64,000 nucleotides of DNA, from NCBI GenBank assembly GCA_036567965.1, contig DATCTN010000021.1, positions 196,906 through 260,905 on the forward strand. Reading direction: 5' to 3'. Shown piece by piece: positions 7,287-30,138 of this stretch. Each line of letters opens with the position of its first letter. Positions within the stretch are counted from its first letter, which is position 1. The notes beneath the pieces are model-generated. The model was given only the letters and a program-made list of their open reading frames with translations. It was not told where the DNA came from and made no database searches. The position numbers were made by a program, and so were the translations under genes. Source of the DNA: Candidatus Kryptoniota bacterium. GTDB lineage: Bacteria; Bacteroidota; Ignavibacteria; Kryptoniales; JAKASW01.

Positions 7287-8312
7287 ATGTCCCTGCCACT
7301 TAAGTCAATTCTGGTGACCGGAGGCGCCGGTTTTATCGGAAACAATTTCATCAGGTATTTCCTCCGAAGACACAACGACATCGAGCTGGTAAATCTCGAC
7401 AAGCTCACTTATGCCGGGAATCTCGAAAGTCTGAACGATATTGAAGGTGAACCGCACTATCATTTCTTCAAGGGAGATATCGCGGACAGCTCATGTGTGT
7501 CCAGGCTGTTTCACGAGTGGCAGTTCGACGCTGTGGTGAACTTCGCGGCCGAGTCTCATGTCGATCGAAGCATTCTGGGTCCCCGCATTTTCATCGAGAC
7601 TAACATCAAGGGGACGCTGACGCTGCTCGAAGCTGCCAGGGAGTTCGGACTGGAAAAGTTTCTTCAGGTTTCAACCGATGAGGTTTACGGATCACTCGGT
7701 CCGACGGGGAAATTCACCGAGAAGACACCGATCGCGACAAACAGCCCTTACTCGGCCAGCAAAGCGAGCGCCGACCTCCTCGTGAGAGCCTGGGACAAAA
7801 CATTCAAGCTGCAGACACTCATCACGCGATGCTCTAACAATTACGGTCCATTCCAGTTTCCCGAGAAATTCATTCCGCTCATGATCATCAACGCTCTTCA
7901 GGATAAGGATTTACCGATATACGGAGACGGAAAGAATGTACGGGACTGGATTTTTGTGGAAGACCATTGTGAGGGAATCGATACGGTTCTGCAGACCGGC
8001 AAACCCGGCGAAATTTATAATATCGGCGGCGGCAATGAGGTCCAAAACATCGACATGGCCATGATGATTCTCGATCGACTTGGAAAGCCGCACACACTCC
8101 TGAAGTTTGTGAAGGACAGACCGGGGCATGATAGGAGATACGCGATGGATTGCGCCAAGATGGAAAGCGAACTTGGTTGGAACCCGCGGCACTCGTTCGA
8201 GAACGGCATTGACGAGACCATAAAATGGTATGTCGCTAACGAGAAGTGGTGGGGGCGGATCATTTCGGGTGAGTATCAGAATTATTATAAACTTCAATAT
8301 GAGGGAAGATGA
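7287..8312 (+). CDS. rfbB: dTDP-glucose 4,6-dehydratase
   Basis: A 341-aa extended short-chain dehydrogenase that converts dTDP-glucose to dTDP-4-keto-6-deoxyglucose. The NAD-binding motif GGAGFIG is at residues 12-18. The dehydratase-specific STDEVYG has T130, D131, E132, and the catalytic pair is Y155/K159 in PYSASKASAD. The substrate loop YGPFQFPEKFIPLMI and GDGKNVRDWI are also typical of RmlB rather than of epimerases. It opens the polysaccharide cluster and overlaps the next gene by 4 bases (ATGA). The partners rfbA, rfbC and rfbD are not in this window, so the final deoxy sugar is uncertain. Confidence 0.93.
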   Translation: MSLPLKSILVTGGAGFIGNNFIRYFLRRHNDIELVNLDKLTYAGNLESLNDIEGEPHYHFFKGDIADSSCVSRLFHEWQFDAVVNFAAESHVDRSILGPRIFIETNIKGTLTLLEAAREFGLEKFLQVSTDEVYGSLGPTGKFTEKTPIATNSPYSASKASADLLVRAWDKTFKLQTLITRCSNNYGPFQFPEKFIPLMIINALQDKDLPIYGDGKNVRDWIFVEDHCEGIDTVLQTGKPGEIYNIGGGNEVQNIDMAMMILDRLGKPHTLLKFVKDRPGHDRRYAMDCAKMESELGWNPRHSFENGIDETIKWYVANEKWWGRIISGEYQNYYKLQYEGR

Positions 8313-9643
8313 ATTCGCAAATTGAAAATCTTAAAATGAAGATTGTCAACAAGACAATGAGAGTTGGAGTCATCGGGCTGGGATACGTCGGGTTACCGCT
8401 CGCGGTCGAATTTGCGTCGAAGGGTTTTGAGACTGTCGGTATTGACATCGACGAGCGGAAGGTTACGAATGTAAACAAGGGGACCAATTATATCGGTGAC
8501 ATTGCCGACGAGGATTTCAAGAGAGTTGTCGCATCGGGAAAACTCCGTGCCGAGAAGAATTACGAAAGTATTGGGACCCTTGATGCGATTTTTATTTGTG
8601 TCCCGACCCCATTCACTCCAAACAAGCAGCCGGATATCTCGTTTATCATAAGCGCCGCAGAAAATATTTCAAGAGGATTGAAGAAGAACCAGCTCGTCGT
8701 GCTTCGAAGCACAACGTTTCCGAACACGACGGAGGGACATGTTCTGCCCGTACTCGAAAAATCAGGATTGAAGGCGGGGAGAGACTTTTTTCTGGCGTTC
8801 TCGCCTGAACGGATCGACCCGGGCAACAATAAGTTCAAGACAAACAACATTCCTACCGTCGTCGGCGGAATAGACGAGACGAGTACGGAGCTGGCCGCTC
8901 TCGCAATAATGGAAAGCGTCGACCAGGTGGTGAAAGTGTCCAATCCAAAAATTGCCGAGATGGAAAAGCTCCTGGAGAATATTTTCAGGAGTGTGAATAT
9001 CGCCCTCGTCAACGAGCTGGCGCAGCTTTGCGACAGGATGGGTGGGATAAATATCTGGGAGGTCGTCGATGCGGCCGCGACGAAGCCGTTCGGCTTCATG
9101 CCATTCTATCCCGGACCCGGGATCGGGGGACATTGCATACTCATCGATCCGTACTACCTCGAATGGCTCGCGAAAGCGTACGATTTCCAGACGAATTTCA
9201 TATCGCTCGCCGCTGAAGTCAACGAGAACATGCCTTTCTACGTTCGCAACATGGTACAGCGCGAACTTAGTTTCAGGCCGGTCAAATTCCGAAATGCGAA
9301 GATCCTGATTCTTGGCGTGGCATTCAAGAAGGATGTTGACGACACCAGGCACTCACCGGCATTAAAAGTGATGGAACTGCTGCTCACCGACGGGGCACAG
9401 AACATAGTCTATAACGACCCCTACGTACCTGAGATCCGCGTGGATGGGAAGGTATTCAAGTCCGTGAAGCTCACTCCACGGCTTCTGAAGAAGATGGACT
9501 GCGTTGTGATCACTACTGACCATTCATCGTATGACTACGACATGATTGTCAAAAATTCCAGGTGCGTAGTTGACTCGAGAAACGCTACAAGGAAAGTCAG
9601 GAACTGGCGGGATAGGATCGTCCTGTTGGGCGATGGTAAGTGA
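8309..9643 (+). CDS. Nucleotide-sugar dehydrogenase (UDP-GlcNAc/UDP-ManNAc 6-dehydrogenase type)
   Basis: A 444-aa UDP-sugar 6-dehydrogenase that oxidises the C6 alcohol of a UDP-hexose(amine) to an acid using NAD. Visible are GLGYVGLPLAVEF (residues 23-35, Rossmann), CVPTPFTPNKQPD, STTFPNTTE, SPERIDPGN, and the catalytic cysteine C276 in GIGGHCILIDPYYLEW. This last form resembles WbpA/WecC-type enzymes more than plain UDP-glucose dehydrogenase. ATG 8309 overlaps the rfbB stop; in-frame ATGs at 8336 and 8357 are possible later starts, the last directly before the fold. With the 2-epimerase downstream it could give UDP-ManNAcA. Confidence 0.88.
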   Translation: MNSQIENLKMKIVNKTMRVGVIGLGYVGLPLAVEFASKGFETVGIDIDERKVTNVNKGTNYIGDIADEDFKRVVASGKLRAEKNYESIGTLDAIFICVPTPFTPNKQPDISFIISAAENISRGLKKNQLVVLRSTTFPNTTEGHVLPVLEKSGLKAGRDFFLAFSPERIDPGNNKFKTNNIPTVVGGIDETSTELAALAIMESVDQVVKVSNPKIAEMEKLLENIFRSVNIALVNELAQLCDRMGGINIWEVVDAAATKPFGFMPFYPGPGIGGHCILIDPYYLEWLAKAYDFQTNFISLAAEVNENMPFYVRNMVQRELSFRPVKFRNAKILILGVAFKKDVDDTRHSPALKVMELLLTDGAQNIVYNDPYVPEIRVDGKVFKSVKLTPRLLKKMDCVVITTDHSSYDYDMIVKNSRCVVDSRNATRKVRNWRDRIVLLGDGK

Positions 9644-9672
9644 AAAGGGAGTATTGAAAAGGGAAGATCCGA

Positions 9673-10773
9673 TTGAAATTTATTAGTGTGGTCGGGGCTC
9701 GCCCGAATTTTATGAAAGTGGCGCCGTTGCATCGGGCGTTCTCTAAGAATAAAGACATAAAACATCTCATCGTTCACACCGGTCAACATTATGACGATAA
9801 CATGTCTAAAGTATTCTTCGAGGACCTTGAACTTCCAAAGCCGGATGTGTATTTGGGAGTGGGCTCTGGCTCGCATGCAGTTCAGACCGCAAAGATCATG
9901 GTAGAATTCGAAAAAATTCTCGTCGCGGAAAAGCCGGATCTCGTAATAGTAGTCGGGGATGTCAATTCGACCGTAGCATGCAGCCTCACGGCGTCGAAGT
10001 TGTGGATCCCGGTTGCTCATGTTGAGGCCGGCCTCAGAAGTTTTGACAGGACAATGCCGGAAGAACTAAACAGGATCGTGACAGACGTTTTGAGCGATCA
10101 TCTCTTCGTTACCGAAGAGAGCGGGATTGTCAATCTCAATAATGAAGGAATAGATAAGAAGAAAGTTCATCTTGTCGGAGATGTAATGATCGACTCGCTG
10201 ATAATGTATAAGGAAAAAGCGAAGCGTTCTCTCGTGAAGGGAAGCTTTGGATTGTCCGCGGGAAAATACACTCTCGTCACGCTTCATCGCCCGGCGAACG
10301 TGGATGAACTTAAGAATCTTGAGATCATCTTGAGAATTTTCAAAGAGATTGCGGGATTCGGGAAGATCGTGTTCCCCATTCACCCGAGAACGCGGAAACG
10401 TATTGAAGAATTCGGACTTTCGTCACAATTTGCGGCTGTGAAGGAGTTGCTGCTGACGGACCCGCTCGGCTACCTGGACTTCCTGAATCTGATGATGGAC
10501 GCGAAGATAATCCTGACGGACTCGGGTGGCATACAGGAAGAGAGCACTTATTTGAACGTACCGTGCATAACCTTGAGAGACAACACCGAGCGGCCCGCAA
10601 CAATAGAAGATGGAACGAATGTACTCACCGGGATGTCGGCTGAAAAAGTTGTAAATCTGGTGAAGGAATGTTATTCCGGAAAGTGGAAGAAGAGCAGGGT
10701 ACCTGAGTTGTGGGATGGAAAGGCGGCGGAACGCGTAATGAAGATACTGGATAACGCATATGGTTCCGCTTGA
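9673..10773 (+). CDS. wecB: UDP-N-acetylglucosamine 2-epimerase (non-hydrolysing)
   Basis: A 366-aa GT-B-fold epimerase that interconverts UDP-GlcNAc and UDP-ManNAc (or close 2,3-diacetamido derivatives). Family blocks are all present: GARPNFMKVAPL at the N-terminus, TGQHYDDNMS, HVEAGLRSFDRTMPEELNR, TLHRPANVD, DSGGIQEEST and RDNTERPATIEDGTN. The start is TTG at 9673. No closer ATG exists and the family N-terminus begins there. It lies 29 bases after the 6-dehydrogenase, so the pair probably makes a 2-epimerised acetamido uronic acid for the polymer. A WbpI-like role on a diacetamido sugar is an alternative. Confidence 0.9.
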   Translation: MKFISVVGARPNFMKVAPLHRAFSKNKDIKHLIVHTGQHYDDNMSKVFFEDLELPKPDVYLGVGSGSHAVQTAKIMVEFEKILVAEKPDLVIVVGDVNSTVACSLTASKLWIPVAHVEAGLRSFDRTMPEELNRIVTDVLSDHLFVTEESGIVNLNNEGIDKKKVHLVGDVMIDSLIMYKEKAKRSLVKGSFGLSAGKYTLVTLHRPANVDELKNLEIILRIFKEIAGFGKIVFPIHPRTRKRIEEFGLSSQFAAVKELLLTDPLGYLDFLNLMMDAKIILTDSGGIQEESTYLNVPCITLRDNTERPATIEDGTNVLTGMSAEKVVNLVKECYSGKWKKSRVPELWDGKAAERVMKILDNAYGSA

Positions 10774-11862: not shown

Positions 11863-13128
11863 ATGAGTTCAAATTCGACACAGAAAGATGGGGCGGAAAC
11901 ATTAGCAGGCGCCAGGAGCAGGAGTACGCTCTGGCAATTTCTCTACGTCTTGACAAAATGGAAATGGTTTCTCCTCGTCTGGTTTGCAGCTGTCATGATC
12001 ATTGTCACGATCATCCTTCTATTGATCCCAAGATGGTACAAGGCAGAAGCTTCGGTCCTCCCTCCAAGAAATTCCGACATTCTAAGCGGGCTGTCCGGTT
12101 TCGCGTCTCTAGCTCAAAGCGTATCTCCATTGCTTGGCAGAACAGGATTGGGTTCAGCTTCACCGACATACGCCTATCTTGCCATCCTCAACAGCCGATC
12201 CGTAATGGATTCGGTAATATATAGATTTGACCTGGTCAAGGTTTACGACATAAGCAGCTATCCGATGGAGACTGCTGAGAAAGAATTACGCGCCAATACG
12301 ATTTTTGACATTGATGAAAATGACGCGCTAAATATTACCGTTTTGGATAAGGACGCGAATCGCGCAGCGAATATGGCGAACTATTTAGTGGTTCTTCTCA
12401 ATGAGATTTACGTCAAGGTAAGCGTGGAGGAAGCTCATAATAACAGATTATTTATTCAGCAACGGTATGCAAAAAATCTGGAAGACTTGAGGTCTGCAGA
12501 GGATACACTGGAGGATTTTCAGCAGCGCTATAAAGTATATGACATGCCGGAACAAGCGAAGGCTGCGATATCCGCCGGCGCCGATCTCGAAGCCCAGCGA
12601 ATAGAGGCCGAAGTCGAGCTAGGCGTCATGAAACAACAATACGGAGAAGACGCCCCTCAGGTGAAGCTGAAGACTCTTCAGATCCAGGAACTGAATCGAA
12701 AACTTATGGACATGCAAACTGGGTCCGGGTCGGATTTCACCAAGGGTGCAAGTGTTCTCCCAGCTTTTAAAAATGTTCCGGAACTCGGAATTGCTTATCT
12801 CAGACTCTACCGCGATTATGAAATCCAAACTAAACTGCTCGAGTTTATTTTGCCGCTATATGAGCAGGCAAAAATTGAGGAACAGAAAGATACTCCTGCT
12901 GTCATAGTCCTCGACAAAGCACTTCCACCTGAGAGGCCTACTGTTCCCAAGAGGCTTTTCATTGAGGTTATTTTCGCGTTTGTGGTCCTCTCAGCACTCG
13001 TTTATTCTGTTCATCTCTTTGAGAGGGTGAGACTCCAATCTGACGGGTTAAATTCATTAGAGATAAGGCTGCGACGTTACGCGTCGAATGCTGCAAGGCG
13101 GTTCAGGGTTAAAGACGAAGTTCTTTGA
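11863..13128 (+). CDS. Wzz/GNVR-type chain-length determinant (polysaccharide co-polymerase)
   Basis: A 421-aa inner-membrane protein with the Wzz layout: a cytosolic N-terminus, one TM helix at about residues 35-58, a long periplasmic helical region (about 60-360), and a second TM helix (about 365-385). The segment PPERPTVPKRLFIEVIF before the second helix is the proline-rich motif of this family. EAQRIEAEVELGVMKQQYG at about 245-265 is coiled-coil-like, and the GNVR-type region follows. No tyrosine-kinase domain is fused. It should set polymer length with the Wzy-like polymerase two genes on. Start ATG 11863 with a 124-bp leader; the stop overlaps wzx. Confidence 0.85.
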   Translation: MSSNSTQKDGAETLAGARSRSTLWQFLYVLTKWKWFLLVWFAAVMIIVTIILLLIPRWYKAEASVLPPRNSDILSGLSGFASLAQSVSPLLGRTGLGSASPTYAYLAILNSRSVMDSVIYRFDLVKVYDISSYPMETAEKELRANTIFDIDENDALNITVLDKDANRAANMANYLVVLLNEIYVKVSVEEAHNNRLFIQQRYAKNLEDLRSAEDTLEDFQQRYKVYDMPEQAKAAISAGADLEAQRIEAEVELGVMKQQYGEDAPQVKLKTLQIQELNRKLMDMQTGSGSDFTKGASVLPAFKNVPELGIAYLRLYRDYEIQTKLLEFILPLYEQAKIEEQKDTPAVIVLDKALPPERPTVPKRLFIEVIFAFVVLSALVYSVHLFERVRLQSDGLNSLEIRLRRYASNAARRFRVKDEVL

Positions 13129-14624
13129 AACAGGTCTATAAGAACTCCGCATTAAACATAGCAGCTCAAATCGTCGTCATGCTGATTATGTTTTTTGCGG
13201 TCCCGAAGATAGTTGGGGGACTGGGAAACGTATCTTTTGCAATATTGTCTTTGGTCTGGACGGTAATTACCTATTTCACGTTATGGGACCTGGGAATAGG
13301 TCGGGCAGTAACAAAATTTGTCGCCGAAAAAAAAGGAATCGGTGAAGACAAAGATGTTGTATCGGTGGTCTACATCTCAACGGTTATTGGCCTCCTTCTT
13401 GGTGGCATATTCGGTGTTCTGGTCTTCGTATTCGATTCTCAATTGGCACATTTGCTCTTTACAGTGCCACCAGGATTTGAGTTAACGGTAGATATAGCTC
13501 TGAAGATTGTCGCGGTTTCTATGCCCGTTCTTCTTCTGCAGAGTGTGTTTCGCGGTGTCGTGATGGGTTTTGATAGATTTGATTTGTCAAATCTGGTCCA
13601 GATTATCAATGGATTCTTGCAGTGGGGGGGAGCGTTGGTTTTAGTCTGGATGCATTTCGATGTATTGTGGGTAATCGGTTTTGTGATGTTAAGTCGCCTG
13701 ATGACGACCATTGTACTTTTTGGGATGATCTCTCGAATCATAAGTTGGGGGAAATTCAGCAGGACACTTAATTTCTCATTGATGAAAGAGGTTTTGGTCT
13801 TTGGAGGCTGGGCAATGGTCAGCCAGGTTGTGAGTCCGCTATTGCAATACGCGGAAAGATTCCTGCTCAGTGCATTGGTAGCGACAAGTGTCGTTACATT
13901 TTACGTGGTCCCCTATGAGGCAACATCAAAAATGTTGGTCCTGTCAGTCGGATTGGTCTCCGCTCTGTTTCCTGCCTTGAGTCAGATTCATGGAACCGGT
14001 GGACTGAATCAGGATTTCAGGAAGCTTTACATACAATCCGAACGGATCTTGGTTTTCGCGTTTCTCCCCGTCGGGGCATTCTTGTTTATATTTGCGCCGG
14101 AGATTTTGAAGTTGTGGATGGGAAGCAGCTTCGCGCAAAGTGCTGGATTGGTTTTTGAAATCCTTTCTTTGGCATTCTTGGTTAACTCCGTCGCACAACT
14201 TCCATTCACAGTTTTGCAGGCAGTTGGCAGATCGGATTTGACAGGGAAAATACATCTTATTGAGTTGCCAATCCATTTCTTGGTTACTTTCATATTGATA
14301 AAGCAGTTTGGCCTGATCGGGGCAGCGACAGCGACCTTCTTTAGGATTATTATGGATGCGGTCCTGCTTTATACATTCACGTCCCAAAAACTTGGATTGA
14401 AGGTCGGAATCTTGAAAGGTTTTGTCAAAAAGATCGTGACCCCCGCTTCTTGTCTTGTTGGGGGCATGATCTGTATGATATTCTTCCAGGATGTCATTGC
14501 AATGAAAATAATTCTCGGACTCATTTCTTTCTTACTCTACGGTTTGATTGTTTTTAAATTTTCACTTGAAGAGAACGAGAAGAAGTTCCTGGTCAATTTG
14601 ACTTTCCGGAGGGCAAGTGCCTGA
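13125..14624 (+). CDS. Polysaccharide flippase (Wzx/MATE-like, MVF superfamily)
   Basis: A 499-aa protein with about 14 hydrophobic helices and almost no soluble domain, typical of Wzx lipid-linked oligosaccharide flippases. The first helix follows NSALNIAAQIVVML, and the family feature GLGNVSFAILSLVWT occurs near residue 30. Start is TTG 13125, overlapping the Wzz stop by 4 bases. The end overlaps the next gene by 8 bases. It would move the undecaprenyl-linked repeat unit to the periplasmic face for polymerisation. Confidence 0.87.
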   Translation: MKQVYKNSALNIAAQIVVMLIMFFAVPKIVGGLGNVSFAILSLVWTVITYFTLWDLGIGRAVTKFVAEKKGIGEDKDVVSVVYISTVIGLLLGGIFGVLVFVFDSQLAHLLFTVPPGFELTVDIALKIVAVSMPVLLLQSVFRGVVMGFDRFDLSNLVQIINGFLQWGGALVLVWMHFDVLWVIGFVMLSRLMTTIVLFGMISRIISWGKFSRTLNFSLMKEVLVFGGWAMVSQVVSPLLQYAERFLLSALVATSVVTFYVVPYEATSKMLVLSVGLVSALFPALSQIHGTGGLNQDFRKLYIQSERILVFAFLPVGAFLFIFAPEILKLWMGSSFAQSAGLVFEILSLAFLVNSVAQLPFTVLQAVGRSDLTGKIHLIELPIHFLVTFILIKQFGLIGAATATFFRIIMDAVLLYTFTSQKLGLKVGILKGFVKKIVTPASCLVGGMICMIFFQDVIAMKIILGLISFLLYGLIVFKFSLEENEKKFLVNLTFRRASA

Positions 14625-15942
14625 GCTGACGCTGTTCCTATACGTACTAATCACTGTCGCGACAATGTGGATAGGCGTACGCGCTTTCGGAAGGTGGATC
14701 AATCATATCACTATTTATGGAATGGTTTGGGGAATCCAGGTCATACTGTTTGAAATGAGGCTTATCGCTTATCATGCTCTCTCTTTTGAGACGACCATGT
14801 TTATTTTCGGGTCATGGGCGGTATTTGTTTTTTCCTCTCTAACAATTCGGAATTTCTATTCTAACAAAATGCCCGAGACGCGAGCACTGCCGGCGCCTCG
14901 ACATGATGTCCTGACTATCGTCCTTGTCACCCTCACGTTGATCGGGGCAATAGGTACATATCAACACTGGACCGTGCTGTTGAGAATGTTCGGCAGCGTG
15001 AAAGGTGTCGTTTTCAATGCCAATCTGATGTATGCGCTTCGCAGGGAAGAGGGCGGAATTCCTGGCATGTGGCCATACGTTGACAGCGTGAGTCTAGCAG
15101 CTGATTTTGTTGGAGGTTATTTCGCGGGACTTCGCCGCCGGCCGATTCTCCTTGCGGTGGCTCCTTTCATAGTTGAACTTGCGAATGCGATCGCAGCATT
15201 TGGACGAAGCAGATTGCTTATAGGGATCATCTTATGGGGTACAGCCTTCTTCTTCACGCAGGTGAAAAAACAGGCCACAGAGAGGAGTGCTAGATGGAAG
15301 CAGGTAGTCCTGCTTGCCTCGATACTGATTATCTTCATCTTCGGGATGGAGTTCATAAGACAGTTTCGTGGCATGAGAGAAAGTTTTTCCGGTGAGACTA
15401 CAAGTCTCTCGCATATGAATGGGGTTGGGCTTATAACGCCCTCTATCTACCTCTATCTTAGTTCTGATGTTGCTGTGTTGAACAAGTTCCTGAACTATGA
15501 GTTTTCGGGACGTGTAGAGCACACACCGATCGGAGGAAATACTTTTGCGCCGTTCTTCAGATTGTTTGCCAAGATCGGCCTCACGGATCCAGTTTTAGAA
15601 TACCAGAAGTCCTACTCGGTTCCAGCGTCAACTAACACCGCAAGCTATCTGCGAGAGCTTTACGCCGACTGGGGGATAGGCGGAACTCTCTTCTTTGTGT
15701 ATTTGCTTGGAGCATTTTGCTCTGTCGCTGTCGAAGCCTATCGACGCAGGAAGTCGTTGACGCTTCTTGCAATTGTCGCCCATTTACACGTTGCAGTTTT
15801 CTTTTCGTTCTTTGTGCAGGTATCGAGGCTAGGCTATTGGATTGTTAGCCTGGTCTTTGCCGTAATTGCTTCGATGATCATAGACAAATATTCTGTTCAT
15901 GAGAACAAGGCGCAATATGGTAATGGAGATGGGACTGTCTAG
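14617..15942 (+). CDS. Putative O-antigen/oligosaccharide repeat-unit polymerase (Wzy-like)
   Basis: A 441-aa polytopic membrane protein with roughly 10-12 helices. A long periplasmic loop (about residues 255-345) carries RQFRGMRESFSGETTS and a Tyr/Pro/Ser-rich stretch (LEYQKSYSVPASTNTAS), followed by helix pairs near the C-terminus. Wzy proteins have little sequence identity, so the call rests on topology, on its place after wzx, and on there being no other polymerase candidate in the cluster. GTG 14617 is inside the wzx end. After its stop comes a 162-bp stretch before the next glycosyltransferase. Confidence 0.7.
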   Translation: MPELTLFLYVLITVATMWIGVRAFGRWINHITIYGMVWGIQVILFEMRLIAYHALSFETTMFIFGSWAVFVFSSLTIRNFYSNKMPETRALPAPRHDVLTIVLVTLTLIGAIGTYQHWTVLLRMFGSVKGVVFNANLMYALRREEGGIPGMWPYVDSVSLAADFVGGYFAGLRRRPILLAVAPFIVELANAIAAFGRSRLLIGIILWGTAFFFTQVKKQATERSARWKQVVLLASILIIFIFGMEFIRQFRGMRESFSGETTSLSHMNGVGLITPSIYLYLSSDVAVLNKFLNYEFSGRVEHTPIGGNTFAPFFRLFAKIGLTDPVLEYQKSYSVPASTNTASYLRELYADWGIGGTLFFVYLLGAFCSVAVEAYRRRKSLTLLAIVAHLHVAVFFSFFVQVSRLGYWIVSLVFAVIASMIIDKYSVHENKAQYGNGDGTV

Positions 15943-19907: not shown

Positions 19908-21320
19908 ATGGTACGATTGAGCGTGAAAAAGGGTGGAGAAGCGCGCACCTTACTGGCTTTAGATTTTCTTTCCCTGACATTGGCCAATATAATATACTAT
20001 TACTTTCGAATCAGGAGCGGACTATTCTCCATACTGACAGTCCCTGATTTTTGGGGGCCGGTTGTGGTCCTCACCTTGTTCTTGATGTTCCTGTACTGGT
20101 TCTGGGGACTTTACAACTTTTCGTATTTAAGTTCCCGACTCGACGAATTCATAGCTATCCTGAAGATCTCGACGGTCTATATACTCATTCTCTTCTTTGC
20201 GATCTTTTTCGACGACGCTGGATCGGGGAGGATTCCTCATTTAAGAATCTTCATACTTTTGTACTGGATACTTGTCATTGCTTTCCCGGGTATTGCCAGA
20301 ATCGGATTCAGGACCATACAAAAGAGACTTCTCATTGGGGGCGTCGGATTGAGAAACGCCATCATAGTCGGATCGGGTGAAAGAGCAAGCTCGGTGTATA
20401 ATCTCGCTTCGAAGTTCAAGACGCTTGGCTACAAACCGCTCGGGTTCGTTAGCCTGAACGAGTCGTCATCCAAAGGGAATCTACCCGCTCCGGTCCTTTC
20501 GGATGTTGCAGGATTGAGCGCGACGATCGAAAGAATGGAGGCGAGGGAAGTGATTATCGCACTCGAGGAATCTGAAAAAGAACACCTTTATGACGTCATC
20601 TCACACATCAACGGCGCAGAGGCTGGGATAAAGATTGTGCCTGATCTGTACGACTCCATCGCCGGGCAGGCGAGAGTGTCTCAGCTGTATGGCTTTCCGC
20701 TGATAGATGTCGTCCCTGAAATAATGACGCAGTGGCAAAGAGTTACGAAACGCCTCATCGACATCTTGGCATCGGCTTTTGCGTTGGTGATATGTTTTCC
20801 ATTGTGGCTGGTGGTTTGTATCGCCATTAAAATCAATTCCCGCGGACCGGTCATATATCGTCAGGAAAGAGTCGGCAAGGACTTGAAACCATTCACGCTT
20901 ATCAAGTTCAGGTCGATGTACGTGGATGCAGAGAAACAGAGTGGTCCCGTCTGGGCATCAAAGAACGACCCACGAGTTACATCGGTAGGCCGATTTATGA
21001 GGAAGACGCACCTCGACGAGACACCGCAGTTTGTGAATGTGCTTGTCGGTGATATGAGTCTCGTCGGCCCTCGTCCTGAAAGGCCGTTCTTTGTCGACAT
21101 GCTTGCGAAGGAAATCCCACTTTATAGACGACGGTCCAAAATCAAGCCGGGACTCACCGGCCTTGCCAGAGTGAAATACAAGTACGATGAGAGTATCGAA
21201 GATGTGAAGATCGACCTGCAGTATGATCTGTATTATATTGAAAACATGTCGCTCCGGTTGGATTTTCAGATTCTGTTCTGGACGGTCTTTCACGTACTCC
21301 TTGGAAAAGGTCACGCATGA
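19908..21320 (+). CDS. Exopolysaccharide polyprenyl glycosylphosphotransferase (WbaP/WcaJ-type initiator)
   Basis: A 470-aa large-form polyisoprenyl-phosphate hexose-1-phosphate transferase that starts the repeat unit on undecaprenyl phosphate. It has N-terminal TM helices (about residues 15-140), a CoA-binding/Rossmann middle domain ([20 protein letters not shown] near 148-167), and the catalytic C-terminus. This last part has the re-entrant helix after [20 protein letters not shown], the core [14 protein letters not shown], the acidic active-site motif [13 protein letters not shown], and [11 protein letters not shown] with PGLTGLARV. All expected catalytic elements are present. TTGACT at 19876-19881 lies in the preceding gap, but no well-spaced -10 is clear. 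It is the only complete initiator in the cluster. Confidence 0.92.
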
Positions 21321-21360: not shown

Positions 21361-22149
21361 ATGTTAAGTCAAGTATCGGAAACCCCGTCCACTGCGAAGG
21401 CTTCACAGGAGCACAAGGCGAAGACGCTGGTTGTGATTCCCACATACAATGAAGCAGAAAATATTGGGGCGATCATCAGGAAAGTATTCAGTTCCAATCC
21501 CGATACAGACATACTCGTGGTAGACGACAGTTCCCCCGACGGTACCGCCCGGATCGTTTCGGATATTTCTCTGTCGGACATACGTGTTCGCCTATTAAGC
21601 CGCAAGAACAAGTCGGGTCTGGGGACCGCATACGTTGAAGGATTCCGCTACGCGATCGAGCATGGATACGATTTCGTTGTTGAAATGGACGCGGATCTGT
21701 CGCACGAGCCCAATGAGATTCCGAAGTTTCATCAGGCACTCCAGAATCATGCCGATGTAGCAATCGGTTCACGCTACGCCTTCGGCGTATCGGTCTTAAA
21801 TTGGCCGATGAAAAGACTCCTCCTCAGCTATAGTGCAAATATTTTTGCGAGAGTCGTGACCGGTGTGCCGGTGAACGACATGACAAGCGGTTTCAAAGCA
21901 TTCAAGATAGAGGTACTGAAGTCCTTCAATTTCAATTCCATAAGATCGAACGGCTACGCCTTTCAAGTGGAGATGAATGCCCGCGCATATCGCCGGGGAT
22001 TCAAACTTGTGGAAGTGCCTATTGTGTTTACCGAGCGGCGCGTCGGCTCGAGCAAGATGTCGAAAAGGATCGTCTATGAGGGCGTGAAGATAGTCCTTAT
22101 CCTCGGAGTCGGAAGGCTGCTCAAGTTCCTCAGGCTGAGAAATCATTGA
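21361..22149 (+). CDS. Dolichol-phosphate mannosyltransferase-like polyprenyl-phosphate glycosyltransferase (GT2)
   Basis: A 262-aa GT2 of the DPM1 type, which charges a polyprenyl phosphate with a single sugar. Motifs are VVIPTYNEAENIGAIIRKV, LVVDDSSPDGTA, and the metal-binding VVEMDADLSHEP with the DAD triad, then NDMTSGFKAFK and VPIVFTERRVGSSKM. There is no C-terminal TM domain, as in the short single-domain bacterial members. GGAGG-type sequence (CGGAGGTGAC) lies just before ATG 21361. The product might feed a periplasmic GT-C transferase outside this window. It overlaps the next gene by 4 bases. Confidence 0.88.
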   Translation: MLSQVSETPSTAKASQEHKAKTLVVIPTYNEAENIGAIIRKVFSSNPDTDILVVDDSSPDGTARIVSDISLSDIRVRLLSRKNKSGLGTAYVEGFRYAIEHGYDFVVEMDADLSHEPNEIPKFHQALQNHADVAIGSRYAFGVSVLNWPMKRLLLSYSANIFARVVTGVPVNDMTSGFKAFKIEVLKSFNFNSIRSNGYAFQVEMNARAYRRGFKLVEVPIVFTERRVGSSKMSKRIVYEGVKIVLILGVGRLLKFLRLRNH

Positions 22150-24122
22150 TTCCGCAAGTCTCGGTAGTAATTGTAAGCTATAATGTCCGTGGCTTCCTGG
22201 AAAACCTCCTCGCCTCACTGAGGCGTGCGCTCGAAGGAGTCCCGTCAGAGACAATCGTGGTGGATAATTTCTCCGATGACGACACCGTCGAGTTTGTCAG
22301 AAAAAATCACCCCAATGTAAAACTGATCGAGAACCGAACAAACGTCGGTTTCGGACGGGCCAATAATCAGGGTGTAAGTGCGTCCACGGGAGAGTACCTT
22401 CTGATCATAAACCCTGACGCCGTTGTTGCCGAAGACACGGTAAAGAGAATGCTGGAGTTCTCGGAGAAACATCCGGAATCAGGTGCGTCAAGTTGTAAAG
22501 TGCTGAACGCCGACGGGACTCTCCAGAAATCCTGCAGGAGAAGTTTCCCAACTCCCTGGGTGGCATTCACAAAGATCTCCGGACTTAGTTTCCTGTTTCC
22601 ACGAACAAAGATGTTCGGAAAATATAATCTGACCTATCTCAATCCCGGAGAGTGCCATGAGGTCGATGCGATTGGCGGAAGCTTCATGTTCATTCCGAGA
22701 GCTGTATTCAAGAAGGTGGGCGGCTTCGATGAAGACTATTTTATGTATGGTGAGGACCTGGACTTATGCTACAAGATTAAGAAGGCGGGATATAAGATTT
22801 ACTATAATCCGGAGACTACCGCTATTCACTTTAAAGGTGAAAGCACGAGACGAAGCACCATTAAACAGACATACGAATTCTACAGGGCGATGATAATCTT
22901 CGTGGAGAAAAGGTATGGGTCGGGGACAATGTTGTCGCGATTGCTAAATGTGGCAATCGTGCTTAGCCGTTTCGCACATTCGTTTTCACATTTGCTGAGA
23001 GACATGTCTCCCGTGCTGATCGATTACCTTATAAGCGTCTGTGCGATGTTCGTGGGCGAGTATCTCCGAGTCCACAAGCTCTACTCAATTCCAAGCTATG
23101 GCAAACCTGTTTTTTATCTTGCGCCTGGAATAATACTCGTTACGTTGGCCGGCAGCCTCGGCGTGTACGGTGAAAATAAATTTTCAATTCGATATTCGTT
23201 TCTTACTGCCTTTCTGACATTCCTGCTCGTCTCGGCAGGTACGTATTTTTTCAAGGCATTTGCCTTCTCCAGATTGATCGTTCTGATTGCCGGAATCTTC
23301 ATGGTAATTCTTATACCCGGTTGGAGGCTGGTATATCAACTCAGGAGTTCGGTGGGTACTTCGAGACACCCAGTATTTGGCAGGAGGACTCTGGTTGTTG
23401 GTATGGATCAGAGGGCCATCGAGCTGATACGGAAGATGCGGGGCAGGATTGCGATGGGCTTTGATATTATCGGCGTGGTCTCGGAAGGAGTGACTGATGA
23501 AGCCAGGCTTCTCGGGATCAAAGTCGTGGGTACTTTAAGCGAACTTCCCGAAATTGTTCGTGAGAGGCGAGCGGACGACGTTGTCTTCGCTTCAGGCCGG
23601 ATCTCTTATGCGCAGGTTCTCCAGGCTGTCGCCAGTGTCAGGGACAAGGGGGTACATTTCAAACTTGTGCCCGACACGATGGACGTAATAATCGGCAAAA
23701 CTTATGTCGATGGGCTGGCGGATGTTCCGCTGGTGGATATCAACTACAGCATCAATCGGCGCCGCAACAAGATCTTGAAGCGTAGCTTTGACATTTTCTT
23801 TGTCCTGGTTGCGGGAATGATCCTGCTTCCCGCGAGATTGTTCAAACGCGACTCTACCGCGGCGAGGGTCTTCGGTAATCTATCGCGGGTCCTGAACGGA
23901 AGCTGGTCCGTTGTCGGTCGCTCCGAGTATTACCCGCAGGGAGGCGACGAGATTTTCGGGAAGCTGGGAATCACAGGTGTAGTACAGCTCAATCGAGGCC
24001 AAACCCTTTCCGAGGAAGAAGTGGAAAAACTGTATGTCTACTACGCCCGAAATCAATCGATTTGGCTGGACCTAGAGATAATCGCCAAGAGCTTCCTCCA
24101 GCTTCTCACGCCCGCCGCTTAA
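22146..24122 (+). CDS. GT2 glycosyltransferase fused to a membrane/Rossmann region and a truncated sugar-phosphotransferase domain
   Basis: A 658-aa composite. Residues 1 to about 260 are a rhamnosyltransferase-like GT2, with VVIVSYNVRGFLENLL, IVVDNFSDDDTVEF, LLIINPDAVV and the acidic YFMYGEDLDLCYKIKKAG. Residues about 270-400 hold about five TM helices. From about 413 a Rossmann domain (RRTLVVGMDQRAIELIRKM, VGTLSELPEIV) matches the middle domain of WbaP-type enzymes. From about 540 the protein has KRSFDIFF, then SWSVVGRSEYYPQ and ITGVVQLNRGQTLSEEEVE. These are the flanks of the phosphotransferase domain, but the catalytic FxxxKFRSM and DE(T/L)PQ motifs are missing. So it is a GT2 joined to an apparently dead initiator. 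Start TTG 22146. Confidence 0.8.
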   Translation: MIPQVSVVIVSYNVRGFLENLLASLRRALEGVPSETIVVDNFSDDDTVEFVRKNHPNVKLIENRTNVGFGRANNQGVSASTGEYLLIINPDAVVAEDTVKRMLEFSEKHPESGASSCKVLNADGTLQKSCRRSFPTPWVAFTKISGLSFLFPRTKMFGKYNLTYLNPGECHEVDAIGGSFMFIPRAVFKKVGGFDEDYFMYGEDLDLCYKIKKAGYKIYYNPETTAIHFKGESTRRSTIKQTYEFYRAMIIFVEKRYGSGTMLSRLLNVAIVLSRFAHSFSHLLRDMSPVLIDYLISVCAMFVGEYLRVHKLYSIPSYGKPVFYLAPGIILVTLAGSLGVYGENKFSIRYSFLTAFLTFLLVSAGTYFFKAFAFSRLIVLIAGIFMVILIPGWRLVYQLRSSVGTSRHPVFGRRTLVVGMDQRAIELIRKMRGRIAMGFDIIGVVSEGVTDEARLLGIKVVGTLSELPEIVRERRADDVVFASGRISYAQVLQAVASVRDKGVHFKLVPDTMDVIIGKTYVDGLADVPLVDINYSINRRRNKILKRSFDIFFVLVAGMILLPARLFKRDSTAARVFGNLSRVLNGSWSVVGRSEYYPQGGDEIFGKLGITGVVQLNRGQTLSEEEVEKLYVYYARNQSIWLDLEIIAKSFLQLLTPAA

Positions 24123-24166
24123 ACTCCGATTCCAAAAGAAGTACCGATCAAGCATTATATTCCCCC

Positions 24167-24198
24167 TTGACATTGGAAACTCAAAACACTAAATTAGT
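24167..24198 (+). promoter_or_regulatory. Promoter of the efflux operon with overlapping palindrome
   Basis: TTGACA (24167-24172), 17 bp and TAAATT (24190-24195) form a near-consensus promoter. ACTAA-A-TTAGT (24188-24198), an 11-bp palindrome, covers the -10 and could be the operator of the TetR protein encoded next. The ATG at 24203 is 7 bases after the -10, so the message would be leaderless. The operator role is an inference. Confidence 0.55.
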
Positions 24199-24202
24199 TT
24201 CC

Positions 24203-24787
24203 ATGGTATCAGACGAATCTGAAGTAAAGCAAGCCATAGTCGAGCTCGCGTACAAGAAGTTCAGTCAACACGGCTTCAAGCGGATCACGATGGACGAGAT
24301 CGCGACCGAACTCGCGATCAGCAAAAAGACCGTCTATAAACATTTCGCGAGCAAAGAGACGATCCTCGAAGAGATAGTGAATCAAAGAGTTAAACGCGGA
24401 GAAGAGGCGTTTAAAGCCCTCCTGGCGGACAACGGCCCCGCGGATGATCGGATCAAGCGGGTCGCTGAGATGTTTCCGAGATTTGTCGATCCAGATTGGC
24501 AAAGACTTATGGCCGACGTCGTGCATAGCGTCCCATCGGTTTCAAAAAAAATTCAGGCAATCCTCACGTATTTCATAACTAAAGTAGCTCCAAGCATAAT
24601 CAGGGAAGGACAGAAACAGGGAACTGTCCGCAAGGATCTAAATATCGACCTGTTTGTCATTGCTTACCTGGGGGCAGCAAAGGAACTCTTTAATTCCGAC
24701 TTCCTCGCGAGACATTCTGTTACCGAAGAGGTATTACCGAAGCAACTGTTCAAGATCTTTATGGAAGGAGTGTTAGTAAGAAAGTGA
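24203..24787 (+). CDS. TetR/AcrR family transcriptional regulator
   Basis: A 194-aa regulator. The N-terminal helix-turn-helix spans about residues 8-55, with KFSQHGFKRITMDEIATELA and the recognition part SKKTVYKHFASKETIL. The C-terminal half is an all-helical ligand-binding domain. The frame is open further upstream to 24062, but that part overlaps the preceding gene and lacks family likeness. ATG 24203 gives the normal TetR N-terminus and sits on the promoter. Its stop overlaps the HlyD start by 4 bases, so it is co-transcribed with the pump it probably represses. Confidence 0.92.
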   Translation: MVSDESEVKQAIVELAYKKFSQHGFKRITMDEIATELAISKKTVYKHFASKETILEEIVNQRVKRGEEAFKALLADNGPADDRIKRVAEMFPRFVDPDWQRLMADVVHSVPSVSKKIQAILTYFITKVAPSIIREGQKQGTVRKDLNIDLFVIAYLGAAKELFNSDFLARHSVTEEVLPKQLFKIFMEGVLVRK

Positions 24788-25764
24788 GTTTTAATATTCG
24801 TGTCGTGACTACCGCAGTGATCCTGGCTGCCGCAGTCTCTCTCGTTGGATGCAGCTCCAGCTCGGATAAGGACGATGTGTCAGCGACCGGAACGATCGAG
24901 GCAACCGAGAGTTCAATTGCAGCGCAAGTACCGGGCCGTATTATGAAGGTCAATTACGAAGAGGGGGCAATCGTAAAGAAGGGTGACACGCTCGCGGAAA
25001 TAGACCACCGCTCGATCGTTCAACAAGTGAACCAAGCTCAGGCGGCTCTCACTATGGCCAGCCAACAGTATGACATGCTTGTCAAAGGCGCCAGAAGTGA
25101 GGACTTGAGAGTAGCGGAAGAGGGTGTCAAACAAGCGGAAGCGAATTTCAACCTGGCGAACCTCGCAATGGAGCGCACAACGAAACTGTTTAGTGACCAC
25201 AGCGTTTCGCAATCCCAGATGGACGCGGCCCAGGCACAGTATGAGGTCGCTTCGGCACAGATGCAATCGGCAAAACAGACTCTCGAGAAGATGCAGCATT
25301 TTGCCAGACCCGAGGAAATCAGGACCGCGGCCGCGCAGGTCGAGCAGGCACAAGCTGCACTCGATTATGCGACGATATCGCTTGAGCATTCCTACGTTTT
25401 GAATCCAATCGACGGAACTGTGCTGGAAAGACTTGTAGAGGTTGGAGATTACGCGAACGTCGGCACGCCCATCTACACTGTCGCTGATCTCCGGATGATG
25501 AAGATGACTGTCTACGTGAACGAGGTCGACCTGGCAAAGATTAGACTAGGTAACGGAGCTAAAGTGGTACTCGATGGCATGCCGAACCACCCATTCGACG
25601 GAAAAGTAATCTATATCTCTCCGACCGCCGAGTTCACCCCGAAGAACGTCGAAACCAAGGAAGACCGTATCAAACTTGTATTCGCTGTAAAGATCGGCAT
25701 ACCTAATCCGGATAATTATTTAAAGGCCGGCCTGCCTGCTGACGCTTCCATATACACCAAATGA
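24784..25764 (+). CDS. HlyD-family periplasmic adaptor lipoprotein of an ABC efflux pump
   Basis: A 326-aa membrane-fusion protein similar to YbhG/EmrA-type adaptors. The signal peptide ends in the lipobox LVGC (C23), so it is lipid-anchored. The biotinyl-lipoyl half-motifs are GTIEATESSIAAQVPGRI and LNPIDGTVLERLVEVGD. Between them a long alpha-hairpin (about residues 75-200) is rich in Ala and Gln (QVNQAQAALTMA, VAEEGVKQAEANFNLA). It would join the ABC permeases to the TolC protein encoded in the same operon. GTG 24784 overlaps the TetR stop; the end overlaps the first ATPase gene. Confidence 0.92.
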   Translation: MSFNIRVVTTAVILAAAVSLVGCSSSSDKDDVSATGTIEATESSIAAQVPGRIMKVNYEEGAIVKKGDTLAEIDHRSIVQQVNQAQAALTMASQQYDMLVKGARSEDLRVAEEGVKQAEANFNLANLAMERTTKLFSDHSVSQSQMDAAQAQYEVASAQMQSAKQTLEKMQHFARPEEIRTAAAQVEQAQAALDYATISLEHSYVLNPIDGTVLERLVEVGDYANVGTPIYTVADLRMMKMTVYVNEVDLAKIRLGNGAKVVLDGMPNHPFDGKVIYISPTAEFTPKNVETKEDRIKLVFAVKIGIPNPDNYLKAGLPADASIYTK

Positions 25765-26669
25765 TAATCAGAGTAGAAAACCTTACGAAGAAATACGGCG
25801 ACCTTATCGCAGTCGACGAAGTCACTCTGGAAATTCAGCGAGGTGAGCTGGTGGGCATAATCGGGCCCGACGGTGCGGGGAAGACAACCTTCATGCGGAT
25901 GATCGCCGGGGCGCTGGAACCCACTTCGGGCAAAATTGTTATCAATGACAAGACTTTTCTTGAAGACCGCCAGCAGCTTAAAGAAGAGATCGGTTACCTT
26001 TCTCAGGTAAGTCAGGCTTACGGCGATCTTACCGTCTGGGAGAACATCGAGTTCTTCGGCAAGATCCATAAGGTGAAGGACTGGGAGCAACGTGGAAACG
26101 AGCTGCTGAGATTCGCGCGCCTAAATGGTTTTAAAAATCGTCTCGGAGATCAGCTCTCCGGCGGTATGCGACAGAAACTTGGAGTTTGCTGCGCGGTAAT
26201 TCATCAGCCGAAGATTCTGATTCTTGATGAACCTACAACAGGAGTCGATCCTGTATCGAGGAGAGAATTGTGGCTCATCCTTGCCACATTCCTCAAGAAC
26301 TCCATGACGATTCTCGTCGCTACTCCTTATCTGAACGAAGCTGAAAGATGCAGTAGAGTCGCGCTCTTCAATCAGGGCAAGCTCCTGAGGTACGATTCTG
26401 TGGCAGCGCTGACGTCTGAAACGCACCTTCATGTGTATGAGATTCATTCGAGAAATCTCGGCGAGGCGCATGCCGTTGTTTCGAAATTTAAGTTTGTTGA
26501 AAACGTCATAATACTTGGCGACAGGATAAACTTTGTCACCGATCATCACACGGAGATGGATGTAATGTCCGTGCTCGACGCCGTGAGAAAATCCGTTGAT
26601 GATAAGGCGGAGATGAAAGAGATCGGCGCTTCGCTTGACAATATCTTTACAAGTCTGATAAAACAATAA
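25761..26669 (+). CDS. ABC transporter ATPase 1 (YbhF-like; H-loop histidine replaced by proline)
   Basis: A 302-aa DRA/YbhF-type nucleotide-binding protein. Walker A GPDGAGKT is at residues 35-42, the Q-loop is in YLSQVSQAYGDLTV, and the signature LSGGMRQ at 132-138 is intact. Walker B is ILILDEPTTG with the catalytic Glu. The H-loop reads VATPYLNEAE: P189 stands where ABC proteins have the switch histidine. The other ATPase in the operon has the histidine but a degenerate signature. The C-terminal 80 residues are the usual extension of this subfamily. It overlaps the adaptor gene by 4 bases and is followed by tolC. Confidence 0.92.
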   Translation: MIIRVENLTKKYGDLIAVDEVTLEIQRGELVGIIGPDGAGKTTFMRMIAGALEPTSGKIVINDKTFLEDRQQLKEEIGYLSQVSQAYGDLTVWENIEFFGKIHKVKDWEQRGNELLRFARLNGFKNRLGDQLSGGMRQKLGVCCAVIHQPKILILDEPTTGVDPVSRRELWLILATFLKNSMTILVATPYLNEAERCSRVALFNQGKLLRYDSVAALTSETHLHVYEIHSRNLGEAHAVVSKFKFVENVIILGDRINFVTDHHTEMDVMSVLDAVRKSVDDKAEMKEIGASLDNIFTSLIKQ

Positions 26670-26752
26670 AATGCCGGACGATTGTTCGATTGTATCGGAT
26701 TACATGCAAAAGGACTATCGGCTGTCGGCTAATTCGCACGGAGGAAACTAAA

Positions 26753-28081
26753 GTGAAAAGAGCAATTATTGGGATTGTGTTAATCGGGTGGGCAATGACA
26801 TCTTCTGCTCAGACAACGCTTTCGCTACAAGATGCCATACAAATTGGTCTCGAGAATTCTAAGTCGCTTAAGATATCGCAGCTCAATGTTTCGATTGCAC
26901 AGGAGAAATCAAATGAAGTGAATGCAAACCGTTGGGCAAACCTGACACTCAAAGGTGGATACACCAGGTTATCGACTGTTCCTCCGTTCAATGTGACCAT
27001 TCCGGTGGGAGAGTTCGGCAATCCGACGCCGCTGTCATTTTCGCTCTATCAGAACCTGTACGATTATTACAATCTGCAACTTCAGCTCCAGCAGCCGATA
27101 TTCACAGGGTTCACGCTGCTAAACTCATCGAAGGCAGCCGAGAAGACAGCCGAAGCAGTTACATATGATTCGAAAGCGGATAGATCAAATCTAGAAGTGC
27201 AGATCGCGACATCTTACTGGAACCTCTACCAGGCAATGGAAGCCGCGCAGTTCATGCAGGAGAACCTTGACCGCACGCAGCTCCATTACAAACAGGCCCA
27301 GGACATGTTGAACCAGGGTATGTTAACGCAGAGCGACGTACTAAGTGTGAAGGTTCAAGTATCAAACGCCCAGTTGATGCTTCTCGACGCTCAGAACAAT
27401 TTGAGACTGGCGGCGGTGGCCTTGAATAATGTCCTCGGTGTACCACTAAACAAGGAATACACTATTACCTCGGTCCCTCAGACGGGCGACACGACAATGC
27501 AGGATATCGGCGCATTGCTCCACACGGCGCTCGAAAACCGAAACGAGCTGCAATCGCTCAAACTGAAGGGACAAGCAGCGGATGCCGCCGTGGCAGCCGC
27601 CTGGGGAGCATACCTGCCGCAGGTAGCTGTCGTCGGAGACTTGTACTATCAACGACCCAACCAGAGGATTCAACCGCCAACCGACGCCTTCAAGAACACC
27701 TGGGATGCCGGCGTAATGATCAGTCTTCCTATTTGGAACTGGGGGCAGACTGAAGCTAAAGTAGACCAGGCGCGAGCCCAGCGTGAACAAGCCGACCTCG
27801 CGTTGAAACAGACTGCCGACGCAGTGTATCTAGACGTGACCCAGAGTTACCTGAATTTTAAACAGGCAAAAGACAAAATTGCCGTTGCTCAGACGGCTGT
27901 TAATGATGCCGAAGAGAGCTACAGAATTTCGGACCAGAAATTCAAAGTCGGTCTGGTTACAAACACTGATCTGATGGATGCCGAGATCGCACTTCTACAA
28001 ACAAAACTCAATTACACCCAGGCGCTTACGGGTCTCGAGATAGCGCGCATTAGTCTTGAAAAGGCGACCGGCCAGCTGTAA
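26753..28081 (+). CDS. TolC family outer-membrane efflux protein
   Basis: A 442-aa TolC-type channel with an N-terminal signal peptide (AIIGIVLIGWAMTSSAQ). Two homologous outer-membrane efflux repeats follow: TTLSLQDAIQIGLENS with long helices in the first half, and DAEIALLQTKLNYTQALTGL near the C-terminus. GTG 26753 was chosen because GGAGG (26740-26744) precedes it and it gives a proper signal peptide. An open frame to 26690 adds a poor N-terminus. It lies between the two ATPase genes and completes a tripartite pump. Confidence 0.92.
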   Translation: MKRAIIGIVLIGWAMTSSAQTTLSLQDAIQIGLENSKSLKISQLNVSIAQEKSNEVNANRWANLTLKGGYTRLSTVPPFNVTIPVGEFGNPTPLSFSLYQNLYDYYNLQLQLQQPIFTGFTLLNSSKAAEKTAEAVTYDSKADRSNLEVQIATSYWNLYQAMEAAQFMQENLDRTQLHYKQAQDMLNQGMLTQSDVLSVKVQVSNAQLMLLDAQNNLRLAAVALNNVLGVPLNKEYTITSVPQTGDTTMQDIGALLHTALENRNELQSLKLKGQAADAAVAAAWGAYLPQVAVVGDLYYQRPNQRIQPPTDAFKNTWDAGVMISLPIWNWGQTEAKVDQARAQREQADLALKQTADAVYLDVTQSYLNFKQAKDKIAVAQTAVNDAEESYRISDQKFKVGLVTNTDLMDAEIALLQTKLNYTQALTGLEIARISLEKATGQL

Positions 28082-28082
28082 G

Positions 28083-29003
28083 ATGGCGCTCGCAATCAAG
28101 GCATCGAATCTGACAAAGAAGTTCGGGGACTTCACTGCTGTTAACGGAATATCATTCGAAGTCGAGGAAGGGAAGATCGTCGGCTTTGTCGGCGCCAACG
28201 GCGCGGGCAAGACAACGACGATCAAAATGCTTTGTGGATTGTCCAGACCTACGTCCGGAGAGGCACTCGTCGCGGGGATCGACGTAACCCGCCATCCCGA
28301 ACTGGTCCGCCAGAGCATCGGTTACATGTCTCAAAGGTTCTCACTCTACAGCGACCTCACCGTCAAGGAGAATATCGAGTTTTACGGCGGGATTTACGGA
28401 TTGAGCAACAGCATACTCAAGGAACGATTTGACTGGGTAGTGGAGGTTGCCGACCTCAAAGGGAGGGAAAATATCCTCACCAAGGATCTGCCGTTGGGAT
28501 GGCGACAGAGGCTGGCTCTCGGCTGCGCAGTGCTTCATCAACCGAAGGTCGTCTTTCTGGATGAACCGACAAGCGGAGTGGACCCGGTCATTCGTGATAA
28601 GTTCTGGGGATTGATAGGAGAATTGTCGCGTGGCGGCGCCACGATGATTGTCACGACGCACCATTTGGAGGAGGCGGAGTTTTGCGAGAGAGTGCTGATG
28701 ATGCATGGCGGGAACATAGTGGTTTATGGTTCGCCGGAAAACATCAGGCGTGAGTTTGCCGATCTCCCGCTATTTGAAATTGAAACCAATAATCCGGTTC
28801 AGGTTTTCAACCTACTGGAAGCCGAGCCGTGGGTGACCGAAGCATCGATTCTCGGAGGAAGCGTCCACGTGTTCGCGCAAGCCGATGATCCGGTTGGGTC
28901 AATAGAGAAATTCCTGAACGAGCACAAACAGAAGGGATTCTCCATCACGAAAGCCGCGCCGACTCTCGAAGATATCTTTGTTAACGCGAACAGGGGAAGT
29001 TGA
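28083..29003 (+). CDS. ABC transporter ATPase 2 (degenerate signature LPLGW)
   Basis: A 306-aa nucleotide-binding protein of the same group as the ATPase at 25761-26669 but clearly divergent. Walker A GANGAGKT is at 37-44, Walker B is VVFLDEPTSG with Glu, and the H-loop VTTHHLEEAE has H193. The signature is L136-P-L-G-W-R-Q142 in place of LSGGxxQ, losing the serine and first glycine that contact ATP. Start ATG 28083 lies one base after the tolC stop; the upstream open part has no likeness to the family. It probably pairs with ATPase 1 under the two permeases that follow. Confidence 0.92.
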   Translation: MALAIKASNLTKKFGDFTAVNGISFEVEEGKIVGFVGANGAGKTTTIKMLCGLSRPTSGEALVAGIDVTRHPELVRQSIGYMSQRFSLYSDLTVKENIEFYGGIYGLSNSILKERFDWVVEVADLKGRENILTKDLPLGWRQRLALGCAVLHQPKVVFLDEPTSGVDPVIRDKFWGLIGELSRGGATMIVTTHHLEEAEFCERVLMMHGGNIVVYGSPENIRREFADLPLFEIETNNPVQVFNLLEAEPWVTEASILGGSVHVFAQADDPVGSIEKFLNEHKQKGFSITKAAPTLEDIFVNANRGS

Positions 29004-29006
29004 AGA

Positions 29007-30137: not shown

Positions 30138-30138
30138 G

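Follow-up and report, generated by a model that had tools for sequence, protein, structure and literature searches.

Large monotopic PGTs of the WbaP/WcaJ type (Lg-PGTs), for which the structure of WbaP has been solved (8t53), combine a four-helix membrane bundle and a CoA_binding_3 DUF with a swap-hairpin segment, a reentrant helix, SLVG and GLTG strands and C-terminal helices. WbaP dimerises mainly via the swapped hairpin of its DUF, and this DUF binds uridine nucleotides, with UMP inhibiting the enzyme (PMC10942596). Bi-PGTs join an enzyme of a glycan pathway to a PGT module whose core is catalytic (PMC10942596). In P. gingivalis the proposed order of enzymes acting on the A-LPS linker is WbaP, then GtfC, GtfF and VimF (PMC13086638, PMC7468200). 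GtfC (PGN_0361/PG0264) is a GT2 protein that an independent comparison lists as a T9SS candidate (PMC5053529), and in a GtfC mutant gingipains are not retained on the cell (PMC7755767). The protein considered here shares features with each of these systems. It has all the structural elements of the large monotopic PGTs listed above, but differs from them by the GT2 domain in front and by the family-wide lack of the Asp-Glu dyad, KFRSM and GPRP. Like the Bi-PGTs it links a glycan-pathway enzyme to a PGT module, but one that is stripped. With GtfC, compared here by its description, it shares a GT2 domain, a WbaP-type initiator and an association with type IX secretion, whereas a WbaP-like half is not described for GtfC in PMC13086638, PMC7468200 or PMC5053529. 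No description of a GT2 enzyme fused to an inactive PGT was found in the literature searched, which covered few subscription journals. The fusion probably serves to dock the enzyme for the second step of a cell-surface glycan pathway on the enzyme for the first.

The window, the whole 64,000-nucleotide stretch of Candidatus Kryptoniota DNA that was analysed, encodes this GT2/pseudo-Lg-PGT fusion at 22146..24122 on the + strand (658 aa), and its homologues are open over their full length in 55 of 61 related genomes. The TTG start at 22146 overlaps the stop of the upstream gene (21361..22149) by 4 bases. Residues 1-260 (22146..22925, +) form the GT2 catalytic domain (Glycos_transf_2, PF00535, residues 6-128, 3e-23), which matches GT2 enzymes in fold with Z scores of 22-26. 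D40, N89-P90-D91 and E203-D204 are invariant among 77 relatives, and the GT-A fold, the Asp/NPD nucleotide-metal motif and the ED catalytic pair together identify the domain as a GT2 enzyme. There follows a four-helix membrane bundle of WbaP type (residues 261-405; 22926..23360, +), with AF2 helices at 262-309, 317-337, 348-368 and 370-402 and a profile match to WbaP 8t53, and behind it a DUF/CoA_binding_3 Rossmann domain (residues 411-509; 23376..23672, +; PF13727 at 352-509, 4e-11; 3nkl, Z 13.0), which is the arrangement of the WbaP-type large monotopic PGTs. NCBIfam EPS_sugtrans/WcaJ/WbaP models also cover the C-terminal half, in two pieces. An intact GT2 domain followed by transmembrane helices and a Rossmann middle domain was what the original prediction had read from this gene, and Pfam, the AF2 helices and the 8t53 profile match agree with it.

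The protein ends in a stripped PGT module (residues 538-656; 23757..24113, +). One internal deletion of about 65 residues takes out KFRSM and the Asp-Glu dyad, and GPRP is replaced; the reentrant helix, the SxVG and GITGVVQ strands and the C-terminal helices are retained. When the family profile (A1, 77 sequences) is aligned with the solved WbaP, the match (E 1e-26 over 289-649) is interrupted by a single large gap, and since this gap starts past the reentrant membrane helix and ends at the start of the LPQLFNVLKGDMSLVG segment, the part that holds KFRSM and the dyad is gone. Bac_transf is matched only at profile positions 94-178 of 179 (residues 579-654), short of a complete PF02397 domain with its catalytic Asp-Glu dyad, and with these motifs missing the module is not the catalytically competent core that defines a Bi-PGT. 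Because GT2 matches dominated a fold search with the complete 658-aa model, the C-terminal half was modelled alone with AF2 (pLDDT 77). The top Foldseek match of this model is WbaP (E 1e-13), and 115 residues superimpose on PglC 8e37 with Z 11.1 and an rmsd of 2.8 A, model residues 255-373 corresponding to protein residues 538-656. These matches to the WbaP and PglC folds indicate that the scaffold of the PGT remains although its active site is gone.

Loss of the active site is a property of the family. A script scan of 135 distinct full-length relatives from Bacteroidota/Ignavibacteria, WOR-3 and related phyla found KFR[ST]M in 0/135 and GPRP in 0/135, and the Asp-Glu dyad is likewise absent from the PGT module in 135/135; four 'DE.[PL]' matches returned by the script (L022-L025) were read as lying in the hairpin segment ahead of the module, since the alignment gives no dyad in the module itself. 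As a control, 98 complete PGTs from the same loci carry a KFRSM-type motif in 97/98, a DExPQ-type motif in 97/98 and GPRP in 95/98. An active PGT was rejected on the deletion of the catalytic motifs. In the alignment, the deletion is slightly smaller in the WOR-3 copies than in other fusions. The original prediction had described a shortened module with intact flanks that lacks FxxxKFRSM and DExPQ; flanks and missing motifs are borne out, the latter in 135/135 relatives, while the module proves to be internally deleted rather than simply shortened. It had also allowed that a sequencing error took out the catalytic part in this genome only. That a sequencing or assembly artefact, or a frameshift in a single genome, produced the gap has a negligible probability, as all independent relatives share the deletion, and this explanation was rejected.

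In the phylum sample, full-length homologues are found across most of the class to which the window belongs and in many further families; records from Ignavibacteria, Chitinophagaceae, Saprospiraceae, WOR-3 and Stahlbacteria contain them as well. Pairs of sequences from within the genus share on average 79% identity in the GT2 domain, 65% in the membrane bundle, 73% in the DUF and 49% in the reentrant helix, and the figure rises to 89% for residues 510-535 (the hairpin region) and 87% for residues 613-654 (the C-terminal helices). P562, the proline of the reentrant helix, is at least 90% conserved. Whether the C-terminus is conserved had been posed along with the original prediction, and with the C-terminal helices at 87% against 79% for the GT2 domain the answer is yes. 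Fusions from five families (L174-L178; f29, f39, f50, f46 and f55) match the profile in two pieces, their GT2 domain being lengthened by about 20-35 inserted residues around position 188. Fibrobacter GT2 relatives of 516-570 aa (L085, L088, L097, L104) match the profile only to about the DUF and are without a recognisable PGT remnant.

Between the DUF and the stripped module, residues 514-531 (23685..23738, +) align with the WbaP segment NTDMSFIFSHEVMLLRIQ in the profile alignment to 8t53. From its length, end residues and chain offset we identify this segment with the domain-swapping hairpin Asn251-Gln268 of PMC10942596. The region around it (510-535) has the lowest AF2 confidence of the protein, very low in both AF2 monomer models; the monomer prediction for WbaP likewise misplaced its swap hairpin. 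The glycine-rich GxG loop of the DUF is present in 11/44 fusions compared with 28/48 partner initiators. Lost nucleotide binding by the DUF was considered as a clean marker of the fusions and dropped, since GxG is only partly lost and hence not diagnostic.

A complete WbaP-type initiator is encoded nearby at 19908..21320 (+), as the original prediction had it; Bac_transf is matched over profile positions 1-178 (E 1e-67), and its orthologues form the partner clade described below. In 46/55 genomes with the fusion, such an initiator precedes it by 0.7-3.6 kb on the same strand. Among the other 9/55, two are limited by short contigs and five all belong to family f3. In families f38, f53, f62, f37 and f58 the initiator is downstream by 1.2-1.9 kb, again with the DPM1-like gene. 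No full initiator was found within about 8 kb in the Chitinophagaceae, Saprospiraceae and WOR-3 loci, so any co-operation does not always go by operon. The question of whether the fusion always co-occurs with a full initiator thus has a divided answer: it usually does, in the same operon (46/55), but within these distances not in the three lineages just named. A tree built from C-terminal halves unites the 44 fusions in one clade (support 100) and places 47 of 48 linked initiators in another single clade, whose sole unlinked row comes from family f3, where fusion and initiator are not adjacent. Because the linked initiators are one clade, the fusion appears to have a dedicated partner, in f3 apparently even when the two lie apart. 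The idea that the C-terminal half arose by recent duplication of the adjacent initiator was rejected, the fusion halves being one clade apart from the partner and other initiators. Distances among fusions and among initiators are correlated (r 0.87, reached in 0/2000 permutations), but we do not use this as evidence of contact because shared vertical inheritance alone would produce it. One linked initiator from an Ignavibacteria MAG (L073, 5848-7239) has KFRTI and LDVVPE in place of KFRSM and DExPQ, and this live partner may itself have lost the catalytic Glu.

Several Bacteroidia have the same GT2 subfamily as proteins of about 370-430 aa (L161-L172) that, unlike the fusion, are without membrane bundle and PGT remnant. 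Most of them end in the last part of the DUF and the hairpin motif, for example IVGSNDKNKSG. In a GT2 tree they are interspersed with the fusions, a pattern indicative of recurrent losses of the membrane/PGT half in Bacteroidia; the tree has weak deep branches, includes a mis-picked row (L043) and two long paralogues, and was used only for this scatter. The short forms, without helices and PGT remnant but often with the DUF end and hairpin, speak for a DUF/hairpin that persists longer than the membrane anchor, and make docking via the DUF/hairpin a better candidate than the anchor, at least as the longest-lasting part. The original prediction had cast the remnant as a possible anchor that holds the second transferase by the initiator or the lipid carrier. 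Its conservation and the co-occurring initiator fit this proposal, but a role for the PGT remnant itself as the essential anchor is not supported, given the short Bacteroidia forms that drop it. Remnants in Chitinophagaceae and Saprospiraceae have lost GLTG.

Several lines of evidence, beyond what the original prediction had covered, connect the fusion with type IX secretion. In family f38 porZ lies directly upstream of it on the same strand in 20/20 genomes, with a gap of 34-748 bp; the porZ call is NF052228 above its cut-off, and the NCBIfam name is 'type IX secretion system anionic LPS delivery protein'. About half of the f38 genomes (which include L145, L152, G338 and G113) have a gap near 660 bp, and in L145 and L152 it holds a small GT2 gene. 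Directly before the fusion, porZ was not found in 12 genomes checked from other families, and in the genome of the window it is 113 kb away. In a 392-genome sample of the phylum, the fusion gene is absent from 72/72 SprA-negative genomes, a set in which 67 of 72 come from one family and the others are G062, G272, G280, G380 and G386. The best family match in these genomes reaches 3.7e-83, and the four that were checked are plain GT2 proteins of 328-329 aa. Many SprA-positive genomes are without the fusion gene, so the link is one-way. Type IX CTD proteins (cargo) occur in 61/61 relatives. The fusion has two features expected of a GtfC-type enzyme, linkage to a WbaP-type initiator (46/55) and the one-way type IX association.

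We propose that the fusion would act second in a lipid-linked cell-surface glycan pathway, as an elongating glycosyltransferase whose GT2 domain would extend the first sugar once the adjacent WbaP-type initiator has linked it to undecaprenyl-PP. Its C-terminal half would be a catalytically dead WbaP copy, of one ancient clade minus the active-site segment, retained as a scaffold. The four-helix bundle and reentrant helix would place the fusion in the membrane next to the lipid carrier, and the DUF and swap hairpin would pair it with its dedicated initiator in much the way that WbaP forms its own dimer, allowing the product to be passed on locally. The glycan would most likely be that of the type IX secretion system, an A-LPS-type anchor, by analogy with WbaP followed by GtfC in P. 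gingivalis. Overall, we assign a probability of about 0.5 to the reading that the fusion is a GtfC-like, possibly orthologous, second transferase of a type-IX-linked glycan with its dead WbaP half docked on a dedicated WbaP-type initiator. The more specific proposal is tentative and somewhat doubtful: that fusion and live initiator form a heterodimer by exchange of DUF hairpins, in which the lipid-linked sugar would move from the first to the second enzyme of the type IX anchor glycan across Bacteroidota/Fibrobacterota.

An alternative of lower but appreciable probability is that the dead WbaP half only tethers the GT2 domain to the membrane close to the lipid carrier and does not touch the initiator specifically. 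Retention of the reentrant helix, P562 and the four-helix bundle suits such a role, and the faster variation of the transmembrane part (65%) and reentrant helix (49%) is what a greasy anchor would allow. An anchor has no need, however, for a hairpin region (89%) and C-terminal helices (87%) conserved above the GT2 domain, and it leaves aside the origin of the partner initiators in one specific clade; the short Bacteroidia forms, moreover, lose the anchor and often retain the DUF end and hairpin. Persistence of the DUF in those short forms, together with the uridine nucleotide binding and UMP inhibition of WbaP (PMC10942596), would also fit a regulatory sensor, whose DUF binds UMP or UDP-sugars and tunes the GT2 domain by feedback while the PGT remnant merely stabilises the fold. 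The lower frequency of GxG in fusions than in partner initiators weighs against this explanation, though binding is still compatible with it, and we regard it as improbable.

Less probable again is a decaying relic, in which a bifunctional PGT-GT2 enzyme lost its PGT activity and is eroding to a plain GT2 protein. Erosion of this kind could account for the missing membrane and PGT parts in several Bacteroidia branches, for the Chitinophagaceae and Saprospiraceae remnants without GLTG and for the somewhat longer segment in WOR-3. Yet in the class of the window the remnant is intact, belongs to a single clade and is conserved about like the rest of the protein, and none of the 135 full-length relatives has a complete PGT inside the fusion.

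The surroundings in the window are those of a Wzx/Wzy-type cluster, with a Wzz-like chain-length protein (read from sequence, without an NCBIfam match), a MATE/Wzx-type flippase and an oligosaccharide repeat unit polymerase at 11863..15942 (+), and sugar-nucleotide genes for dTDP-glucose 4,6-dehydratase, an NDP-sugar dehydrogenase and a WecB-type 2-epimerase at 7287..10773 (+). The gene that overlaps the fusion (21361..22149, +) encodes a DPM1-like GT2 protein, whose orthologue is usually directly upstream; it adjoins the fusion in most Ignavibacteria-like loci and the related GT2 gene in Fibrobacter. A DegT aminotransferase stands between the initiator and the DPM1-like gene in many loci. It was checked for an identity as WbpE, and because it matches only PseC/WecE-type models, below cut-off, we make no claim of a Wbp pathway. 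Directly 3′ of the fusion many loci have accA (acetyl-CoA carboxylase alpha; for example L037, 9983-10948), a homologue of which was found in 107 fetched loci. In the window's genome its place is taken by a TetR and efflux operon (24062-31275), with genes named by reading their sequences as a TetR regulator, an HlyD-like protein, two ABC ATPases, a TolC-like protein and two ABC permeases.

The fusion bears on how membrane-bound enzymes of glycan synthesis are arranged as a relay; work on such metabolons is described as a long-standing goal in the paper on the WbaP structure (PMC10942596). It offers a natural experiment, as a transferase that carries a dead copy of its upstream enzyme and has the live one alongside in dozens of genomes. 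If the links to porZ and SprA hold, the fusion would be a candidate, in lineages distant from P. gingivalis, for the second transferase of the type IX anchor glycan, and would suggest that GtfC may be a reduced descendant of a larger ancestral form.
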